NCBI RefSeq assembly: GCF_002975405.1
Contig: NZ_PCPS01000001.1
Span: forward strand, 248,001 to 312,000
Direction: 5' to 3'
Length of the DNA: 64,000 nucleotides
Source of the DNA: Arthrobacter sp. MYb229
Lineage (GTDB): Bacteria; Actinomycetota; Actinomycetes; Actinomycetales; Micrococcaceae
Shown: positions 56,575 to 58,825 of the stretch, piece by piece
Layout: the number at the start of each line of letters is the position of its first letter
Numbering within the stretch: position 1 is the first letter of the stretch
Notes under the pieces: model-generated
Seen by the model: only the letters and a program-made list of their open reading frames with translations
What the model was told of the DNA's origin: nothing
The model's database searches: none
Position numbers and translations under genes: made by a program

Positions 56575-56688
56575 TTGAAGGTTAACCCTAGCGTGAAGCC
56601 GATCTGCGATAAATGCAAGGTGATCCGTCGTAATGGCGTGGTCATGGTGATCTGCGAGAATCCACGCCACAAGCAGCGTCAGGGCTAA
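56575..56688 (+). CDS. rpmJ: Ribosomal protein L36 (bL36), zinc-binding form
   Basis: A 37-aa protein too short for most ORF calls: TTG at 56575 after AAAAGGA, ending in TAA at 56688. It reads [20 protein letters not shown] and ends [13 protein letters not shown], with the CxxC...C...H zinc ligands of the C+ form. Stabilises 23S rRNA beside L6/L16. Between infA and rpsM. Confidence 0.95.
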
Positions 56689-56725
56689 TTCCGTTCTTCG
56701 GAATTTCCCACGCGTAGTCATATAG

Positions 56726-56802
56726 GCAGTACCGCATCGAAGTATCGATGCACACCCCCGGGTTCGGAGGCCGGGGCCAGGAGATATCCTGGGTGGTACT
56801 GC
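56726..56802 (+). promoter_or_regulatory. Four-way-junction RNA element ahead of rpsM
   Basis: A compact 77-nt cloverleaf. P1 GCAGTACC (56726-56733) with GGTACTGC (56795-56802); P2 GCATCGA/TCGATGC (56734-56751, loop AGTA) stacked directly on P1; P3 CCCCGG/CCGGGG (56756-56776); P4 CCAGGA/TCCTGG (56777-56792, loop GATA). All helices are perfect. It ends 31 nt before the rpsM start. It is not a tRNA (arm lengths and missing T-loop). A ribosomal-protein leader is the likeliest function. Confidence 0.65.
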
Positions 56803-56833
56803 TCCAGACCTCCGTTGGTTGAAAGGTAGCCAC

Positions 56834-57208
56834 TTGGCTCGTTTAGCAGGCGTGGACATTCCACGCGAAAAGCGCGTAATTATCGCGCTGACTTACATCT
56901 ACGGCGTGGGCAAGACCCGTGCAGAAGAGATCATCGCAGCGACCGGGACCAACCCGGACACGCGCGTTAAGGATCTCAGCGACGCTGACCTCGTTCAGCT
57001 GCGTGACTTCGTCGAAGGCACTTACAAGGTAGAAGGTGACCTGCGCCGCGAGGTTCAGGCTGACATCCGCCGCAAGGTCGAGATCGGATCCTACGAAGGT
57101 ATTCGTCACCGTAAGGGCCTGCCGGTCCACGGTCAGCGCACCAAGACCAACGCTCGTACCCGCAAGGGCCCGAAGCGTACCGTCGCAGGTAAGAAGAAGA
57201 CTCGCTAA
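56834..57208 (+). CDS. rpsM: Ribosomal protein S13 (uS13)
   Basis: A 124-aa S13 of the 30S head, contacting P-site tRNA and L5. [77 protein letters not shown] at 56834, with AAAGG upstream, gives the standard [10 protein letters not shown]; an earlier reading adds five residues. A structured RNA lies just upstream. Confidence 0.97.
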
Positions 57209-57251: not shown

Positions 57252-57653
57252 ATGCCCCCAAAGACTCGTGGAGCGGTACGTAAGCCGCGTCGCAAGGACA
57301 AAAAGAATATCGCGCAGGGACAGGCGCATATCAAGAGCACCTTCAACAACACCATCGTATCGATTACCGATCCGTCCGGTGCTGTTATCTCGTGGGCTTC
57401 GGCCGGCGAGGTAGGCATGAAGGGCTCGCGTAAGTCGACCCCATACGCTGCTCAGATGGCCGCTGAATCTGCCGCTAAGCGCGCGCAGGAGCACGGCATG
57501 CGCAAGGTTGACGTTTTCGTCAAGGGCCCGGGCTCGGGACGCGAAACCGCGATCCGTTCGCTGCAGGCTGCTGGCCTTGAGGTTGGATCCATCCAGGATG
57601 TTTCCCCAAGTGCCCACAACGGTTGCCGCCCATCAAAGCGTCGCCGCGTCTAA
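57252..57653 (+). CDS. rpsK: Ribosomal protein S11 (uS11)
   Basis: A 133-aa S11 of the platform, next to the mRNA exit. [102 protein letters not shown]. Directly downstream rpsD is absent; a hairpin and rpoA follow. Confidence 0.98.
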
Positions 57654-57680: not shown

Positions 57681-57715
57681 GTCACCGAGCCATTCTTGCC
57701 GAATGGGTCGGTGAC
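57681..57715 (+). other. Hairpin between rpsK and rpoA
   Basis: GTCACCGA-g-CCATTC pairs with GAATGG-g-TCGGTGAC around TTGCC, in the 167-nt gap where rpsD usually lies. It could attenuate or process the message. Confidence 0.5.
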
Positions 57716-57820: not shown

Positions 57821-58825
57821 GTGCTCATTACGCAGCGCCCAACCCTGACCGAAGAAGTAGTTTCCGAGAATCGCTCCCGGTTCATCATTGAACCGTTGGA
57901 GCCAGGCTTTGGTTACACCCTAGGCAACTCACTCCGCCGTACCCTGTTGTCCTCGATCCCTGGTGCAGCTGTCACCAGTGTTCGACTCGACGGTGTATTG
58001 CACGAGTTCTCTACCGTAGCCGGTGTCAAGGAAGACGTCACCGAACTGGTTCTTAACATCAAGAACCTGTCGGTCTCTTCCGAGCACGACGAGCCGGTCG
58101 TCGCCTACCTGCGCAAGCAGGGCCCAGGCGTCGTCACCGCAGCGGATATCACCCCACCAGCGGGTGTAGAGTTCCACAACCCTGAGCTGCACATCGCTAC
58201 CTTGAACGCCAATGGCAAGTTCGATTTGGAACTGACCATTGAGCGTGGCCGTGGCTATGTGTCAGCTGCTCAGAACAAGAGTGCCGACACCGAGATCGGT
58301 CGAATCCCAGTTGATTCGATCTACTCGCCGGTGCTGAAGGTGACCTTCCGCGTGGAAGCTACCCGTGTTGAGCAGCGCACCGACTTCGATCGCTTGATCG
58401 TTGACGTTGAAGCAAAGCCGTCGATCACCCCGCGCGATGCTGTTGCATCCGCAGGTACCACGCTGGTTGAGCTGTTCGGTTTGTTCCGCGAACTGAACAC
58501 CGCAGCCGAAGGTATCGAAATCGGCCCATCGCCAACGGATGCAGCTTTGGCTGCAGACATGGCGCTGCCGATCGAGGATCTGGAACTGACCGTTCGCTCG
58601 TACAACTGCTTGAAGCGTGAGGGCATCCACTCCGTGGGTGAACTCGTAACTCGCTCCGAGGCCGACCTGATGGACATCCGTAACTTCGGTGCGAAGTCCA
58701 TTGACGAAGTCAAGGCCAAGCTTGTTGAACTGGGTCTAGCACTGAAGGATTCCCCTCCAGGGTTCGACCTTGCCGCTCGTAGTGCCATCGAAGATGGCGA
58801 CGACGTCTACGACGAAGGCCTGTAA
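57821..58825 (+). CDS. rpoA: RNA polymerase alpha subunit
   Basis: A 334-aa alpha. [61 protein letters not shown] (assembly platform for beta/beta'), and [18 protein letters not shown] (about 255-315): [27 protein letters not shown] and [19 protein letters not shown], the UP-element and activator contact region. GTG start. Acidic C-terminal tail [10 protein letters not shown]. Confidence 0.98.

Follow-up and report, generated by a model that had tools for sequence, protein, structure and literature searches.

What occupies the 145-nt gap between rpmJ, whose stop codon ends at 56688, and rpsM in the window (the whole analysed stretch of 64,000 nucleotides from Arthrobacter sp. MYb229), and how may an alpha operon be controlled if rpsD, the gene of its usual regulator, is not part of it? 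The gap holds an RNA element, for which an earlier note gave a distance of 31 nt from its end to the rpsM start, correctly for the TTG at 56834. The absence of rpsD from the cluster, also claimed there, is real: the frame at 57252..57653, the translation of which we take to be that of rpsK (S11), is followed by rpoA, and the unlinked rpsD of this genome lies approximately 0.67 Mb away (G000:C1:970454). Our preferred reading, held with a probability of about 0.72, is that the segment 56725-56814 is a ribosomal-protein leader in the rpsM-rpsK-rpoA mRNA that would control translation, and by this element the cell can probably limit its output of ribosomal proteins. Almost nothing is known about feedback control of ribosomal proteins in Actinobacteria (PMC8470358; here and below statements on the cited papers refer to the available parts of their texts).

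Table 1. Features of the rpmJ-rpsM gap and of the genes behind it (positions in the window)
Feature	Position	Strand	Basis and remarks
P1, 5' strand, GCAGTACC	56726-56733; with G56725 in G.U pair 56725..56733	+	sequence, fold, covariation
P2 hairpin	56734..56751 (56734-56740/56745-56751)	+	7 bp, loop AGTA, without linker to P1
Junction strand J2/3, ACAC	56752..56755	+	sequence
P3 hairpin, CCCCGG/CCGGGG	56756..56776 (56756-56761/56771-56776)	+	6 bp; loop holds pseudoknot strand
Pseudoknot, 5' strand, CGGAGG	56765..56770	+	in P3 loop, directly abuts P3; covarying words
P4 hairpin	56777..56792 (56777-56782/56787-56792)	+	6 bp, loop GATA; expanded in some genera
P1, 3' strand, GGTACTGC	56795-56802; with U56803 56795..56803	+	sequence, fold, covariation
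Pseudoknot, 3' strand, CCTCCG	56809..56814	+	complementary to P3 loop; downstream of P1
Likely Shine-Dalgarno sequence of rpsM, AAAGG	56822..56826	+	inferred from reading of the sequence
rpsM (S13)	56834..57208	+	TTG start, protein MARLAGVD..., gene directly 3' of element
rpsK (S11)	57252..57653	+	conserved gene order; named from translation
rpoA	57821..58825	+	directly after rpsK, rpsD not in between

The four helices P1-P4 (8, 7, 6 and 6 bp) described earlier are all of Watson-Crick pairs, apart from one wobble, G56725.U56803, by which P1 may now be extended. Energy-based folding returns the same cloverleaf at -45.0 kcal/mol, against -26.3 +/- 3.3 for dinucleotide shuffles (z = -5.7). None of 200 such shuffles folds as well, and the covariation described below refutes an origin of these inverted repeats by chance, so that the probability left to chance is negligible. 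Thus, the four-way junction is confirmed as real. Among relatives P2 and P4 show wide variation in sequence and length, and in some genera a much larger domain stands in place of P4 (L017, L035, L045, L085, L089, L094 and L105-L108), P3 and the pseudoknot being kept there.

This pseudoknot was overlooked in the earlier note, the four-way shape of which otherwise stands. Almost every relative can pair the final six bases of its P3 loop with a six-base stretch immediately 3' of P1. P3 and the pseudoknot helix abut without a linker, three bases (GTT) being left in front, and in the window the pseudoknot ends some 20 nt short of the rpsM start codon. From these complementarities, the predicted architecture is an H-type pseudoknot hung on a four-way junction. 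Its occurrence was estimated with an automatic descriptor (a 6-bp hairpin with the end of its loop complementary to 6 nt close to the start codon), which picked out 105 of the 110 family loci and 20 of 550 dinucleotide-shuffled sequences. The former is a fair count, since these loci had been fetched via S13, independently of the element. P3 and the pseudoknot stand at the usual distance from the start codon in 103 of the 110. The descriptor fails in five, in one of them (L008) by a single P3 mismatch, as judged by eye.

A wider set comprised 179 distinct gaps of at least 85 nt from 207 loci, about a third of them model-chosen; loci found by exact pattern were excluded from it, since the pattern fixes the pseudoknot word. 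Here the descriptor was found in 172 of 179 gaps, and in 169 of these 172 the first base of the pseudoknot 3' strand lies 24-34 nt before the rpsM start codon. The pseudoknot words are CGGAGG/CCTCCG (123 gaps), CAGAGG/CCTCTG (14), CAAAGG/CCTTTG (6), CGAAGG/CCTTCG (5), AGGAGG/CCTCCT and CAGGGG/CCCCTG (4 each), CGCAGG/CCTGCG and CAAGGG/CCTTTG (2 each), and twelve further pairs that occur once each. Three of these 20 word pairs should be disregarded as probable wrong picks, the descriptor having chosen sites 43-47 nt from the start codon in L045, L050 and L128. Of the word pairs at the usual distance, eleven consist of Watson-Crick pairs throughout, including CGTAGG/CCTACG, CGGGGG/CCCCCG, CGAGGG/CCCTCG and CGGGAG/CTCCCG, and P3 itself appears in relatives as CCACGG/CCGTGG, CTTCGG/CCGAAG or CCGCAG/CTGCGG. 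The descriptor demands complementarity within a locus, and the evidence for covariation comes from the many words, each with its own partner at the same spot; when partners were swapped between loci with different words, 4,212 of 12,570 combinations were still complementary with G.U pairs allowed. The pairing of the P3 loop with the downstream strand is the best-kept part of the element.

For the whole fold, covariation was estimated in an alignment of 88 model-aligned family sequences (83 distinct), into which the pseudoknot was written. Pairing is preserved in 95.5% of pair cells of the distinct sequences, and 20 of 31 pairs changed on both sides. The covariation score was 0.400 against 0.136 +/- 0.006 for shuffled data (none of 500 shuffles as high), and it fell to 0.028-0.072 when partners were slid. 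Double changes were registered in 5 of 9 pairs of P1 (4 of 7 in its helix 1 and 1 of 2 in helix 2), in all 6 modelled pairs of P2, in 3 of 6 of P3, in all 4 modelled pairs of P4 and in 2 of 6 pairs of the pseudoknot, 99.8% of whose cells are paired. One P1 pair is non-standard in 28 of 83 rows (mostly C opposite A, by eye), and so is the terminal pair of P1 in 23 of 83. Since the alignment follows P1-P4 of the model, it leans towards these helices; the pseudoknot was outside the model. Thus, all five helices covary, and the complementarity of the four stems is kept in relatives with compensatory changes.

How far does the element extend? S13 matches were found in 118 of 120 family genomes. A covariance model (R1), built from 25 family sequences, matched 88 of 100 family loci (8 of the 118 loci were unfetched, 10 of the remaining 110 stayed outside the R1 search and 12 of the 100 were missed at E 0.01). 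It also matched 195 of 297 genomes of the order, 128 of 296 genomes of the class and 19 of 296 genomes drawn from the phylum. All of these 19 belong to the class, and no R1 match was obtained in the phylum draw outside it, although some 270 of the 296 genomes lie there, to judge by their handle numbers. Thirty genomes chosen among those listed without a match were then inspected, and 29 of them had S13. Of the 21 among them that belong to the class, 19 carry the descriptor (L324 only with two G.U pairs), L317 has by eye a 5-bp version, and L323 (G402) lacks the element in a gap of 81 nt. Misses of R1 inside the class, therefore, largely reflect the weakness of the model. In eight actinobacterial loci outside the class the gaps of 1-45 nt carry no element and leave no room for it. 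As far as this sample goes, the element is characteristic of the class; this reach beyond Micrococcaceae was overlooked by the earlier note. Streptomyces, Nocardia, Rhodococcus, Micromonospora, Frankia, Actinomyces, Cellulomonas, Brevibacterium, Nocardiopsis and Arthrobacter are among the carriers in the listed matches of a pattern scan. As to the 81-nt gap of L323, it contains a direct repeat of CCGCGCCCGAAAA.

All 30 loci fetched from the order search and all 29 from the class search have rpsM directly behind the element, these being the best-scoring matches and not a random choice, with some from the same family. In an exact-pattern scan of public genomes, which gave at least 120 matches, rpsM starts 19-28 nt after the pattern in 119 of the 120 listed; the other one (L197) lies 77 nt from the locus edge, where rpsM would be cut off. 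On the upstream side, in 98 class-wide loci (98 of 100 sources matched; L206 is a partial match), P1 begins 7-131 nt after the rpmJ stop, and in 20 of them after 7-25 nt. An rpsM promoter downstream of the element, which would have spoken against the earlier note, would find little space, since the stretch from the pseudoknot to the rpsM start can hold hardly more than a Shine-Dalgarno sequence. A compact junction with a pseudoknot is a common build of riboswitches, and one may ask whether a small molecule or ion is sensed here instead of a protein. Riboswitches, however, usually occur before several genes. The element stands before rpsM in the 59 fetched loci and in 119 of the 120 listed pattern loci, which argues against a riboswitch and makes it very improbable.

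Weak second matches of R1 were also registered. One of 17 bits on another contig of this genome had no match to S13, L36, S11, S4 or RpoA within its 3-kb locus and, with none of these five proteins nearby, was judged to be chance and not a second copy. None of the five was found near other weak second matches (G306, G500, G586, G593), and no S13 near those in seven genomes of one genus (f37 g132). Second matches in G448, G593 and G571 share one coding stretch and were judged to be chance; in G448 it falls within a long reading frame that in our reading resembles an amidohydrolase. For Streptomyces ambofaciens, a second S13 gene (rpsM2) and antisense RNAs against rpsM, rpmJ and infA have been described (PMC8388888, in the available part).

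Several other features surround the element. The rpsM gene starts with TTG in five of six loci of the host genus (L002, L004-L007) and with ATG or GTG in the remaining family loci fetched. Directly 3' of the rpmJ stop there is a short hairpin TTCCG-TTCTT-CGGAA (56689-56703), at which no terminator-like site was called; by eye, similar hairpins occupy the same spot in many relatives. A box CCCACGCGTAGT at 56707-56718, 5' of P1, is perhaps a promoter or binding site; the CACGC box was dropped as a part of the element, since it is present in 50 of 88 family alignment rows but in 13 of 98 loci of the class-wide set. In a few genera, by eye, this box might pair with the P2 loop. The gap between rpsK and rpoA contains a long inverted repeat at 57681-57715, GTCACCGA...TCGGTGAC, with inner CCATTC/GAATGG. 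A search by sigma-70 consensus only found no promoter-like sites around the element in the window, and no terminator-like sites were found there either.

What this analysis shows is the fold, for which covariation is the evidence, together with its location upstream of rpsM and the narrow range of its distance to the start codon. As the earlier note had proposed, such an element may be a sensor of a ribosomal protein (S13/S11 or other). It would be transcribed together with rpsM and fold into the four-way junction, the third arm of which would form the H-type pseudoknot with the strand about 20 nt 5' of the start codon. A protein encoded in the operon, when in excess over rRNA, would bind this fold and stabilise it. 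With this rigid pseudoknot bordering the ribosome-binding site, 30S initiation at rpsM would then be hindered, either sterically or by trapping of the ribosome on the protein-stabilised fold, and so, through coupling, would initiation at rpsK. Translational control is the simplest assumption because the pseudoknot borders the ribosome-binding site on its 5' side within a narrow range of distances, and no terminator-like site was found. A switch that sequesters the Shine-Dalgarno sequence was rejected: the longest run complementary to this sequence averaged 3.94 in the own locus (194 loci) and 4.15 with loci having different words, so that the pseudoknot 3' strand and its own Shine-Dalgarno region form no longer run than mismatched ones do. 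Simple sequestering being unsupported, the repression step is the weakest link of the proposed chain. One might assume that the fold senses nothing and only protects the mRNA, assists its processing or fixes the translation rate; covariation indeed shows a conserved fold and not a ligand, and the wide variation of P2 and P4 fits such a role. Yet a class-wide P3-pseudoknot core together with a four-way junction exceeds the needs of a plain stem, and the link with a ribosomal protein operon would fit feedback, which leaves a merely structural element distinctly unlikely.

If the element is a ribosomal-protein leader, which protein does it perceive? The 98 class-wide loci were all chosen because they carry the element; rpsK is followed by rpoA in 60 of them and by rpsD in 29, and the next gene is not assigned in 9. 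One can suppose that S4 represses in trans even where rpsD has moved, the element playing in actinomycetes the part that the S4 site plays in the alpha operon of E. coli. That operon is known to be regulated by S4 (PMC10931766), which is also the assigned ligand of leaders that precede rpsM-rpsK-rpsD in Clostridia and Fusobacteriales (PMC7247131), and rpsD does follow rpsK in the 29 element-bearing loci. However, with S4 as the sole ligand the separation of rpsD should break the feedback loop, and the element is nevertheless kept in the 60 loci with rpoA directly after rpsK. Moreover, the eight loci outside the class, with no element in their short gaps, all have an S4 match nearby. In eight loci with linked rpsD the S4 protein is only 42-47% identical to that of this genome. 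We regard an S4 leader as unlikely.

The unlinked rpsD of this genome has no R1 match of its own, but a different conserved block stands upstream of it. This block (L342:1371-1503, G000:C1, outside the window) is highly conserved in 15 loci of the same genus and is perhaps an S4 leader in its own right, with a different structure. It contains GCGACG/CGTCGC together with a CTCC/GGAG hairpin; by eye there is also a hairpin GGGxCGCGACGCCC, the loop of which could pair with GTCGC before the Shine-Dalgarno sequence. These pairs hardly vary, so that covariation says little here. Both the presence of the element in loci with and without linked rpsD, and the absence of an R1 match at rpsD, which has its own upstream block, favour S13 or S11 over S4. 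S13 and S11 join the rRNA at a late stage of assembly, whereas the ligands of known leaders are mostly early binders, which would favour S4. On balance, provided that the element is a ribosomal-protein leader, S13 or S11 appears slightly better than an even bet as its ligand, S4 acting in trans is less likely, and another protein is distinctly unlikely.

Taken together, the element can be tentatively pictured, at somewhat less than even odds, as a class-wide actinomycete leader in which a pseudoknot-locked junction senses S13 or S11 and not S4, the feedback in the alpha operon being kept where rpsD has left. To our knowledge, this would be the first leader for S13 or S11. Should such sensing be true, the alpha operon would have retained its feedback control in spite of the departure of rpsD. 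In any case the element is a concrete candidate regulator of an essential operon, which also encodes the alpha subunit of RNA polymerase, in a class that includes Streptomyces, Nocardia, Micromonospora and Arthrobacter, and it offers a natural experiment, in which one leader is kept with and without the gene of the usual regulator in the operon.

Known systems give several points of comparison. Text searches of the literature found no description of an rpsM element of this kind. In the parts of the surveys that were available, namely Table 1 of Eckert and Weinberg 2020 (PMC7247131), the 2010 survey (PMC2864571) and the survey of 26 genomes (PMC8632094), no actinobacterial rpsM leader is given. 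A survey of 50 genomes (PMC11109978) includes Streptomyces avermitilis and reports 30 ribosomal leader candidates, one of which (rpsJ) is described in its text; the element may be among those left to its supplement. The putative actinomycete rpsM leader thus appears new, with the caveat that most of these 30 candidates are in the supplement only. With families of Rfam 15 at the gathering score, the only match in the window is a tRNA far from the element, and there were no matches in 17 loci of the order and class.

Of the described leaders, that of mycobacterial rpsO likewise belongs to an actinobacterial ribosomal protein mRNA and requires a pseudoknot in the 5' UTR for regulation; it differs in its gene and ligand (S15), and no four-way junction is described for it in the available text (PMC8470358). 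The Bacillus rpsD leader also serves S4 control where rpsD is unlinked, but it sits before rpsD itself and forms no pseudoknot, and, according to the available part of a 2024 review, it is not known how the alpha operon of Bacilli, which lacks rpsD, is controlled (PMC10931766). Leaders of S4 in Clostridia and Fusobacteriales precede the same operon, in the form rpsM-rpsK-rpsD; they belong to other lineages, carry a conserved GAAA (Clostridia) or GUAA (Fusobacteria) and have rpsD among the regulated genes (PMC7247131). Alpha_RBS (RF00140) of E. coli also precedes rpsM and includes a pseudoknot. The unlikeness to this S4 site stated in the earlier note holds: Alpha_RBS gave 14.4 bits in the window against a gathering score of 38, and the match vanished without the coding part of rpsM, so that homology was rejected and the match is taken as similarity of coding sequence and ribosome-binding site; weak matches of 18.4-21.5 bits, coding part included, occur in 5 of 18 relatives. 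Translational control is known for Alpha_RBS and only proposed for the actinomycete element. The E. coli pseudoknot takes in the ribosome-binding site itself (PMC10931766, in the part available). That of the actinomycete element does not: its 3' strand starts 24-34 nt before the rpsM start codon, and in the window it ends about 20 nt upstream of this codon and is built on a four-way junction.
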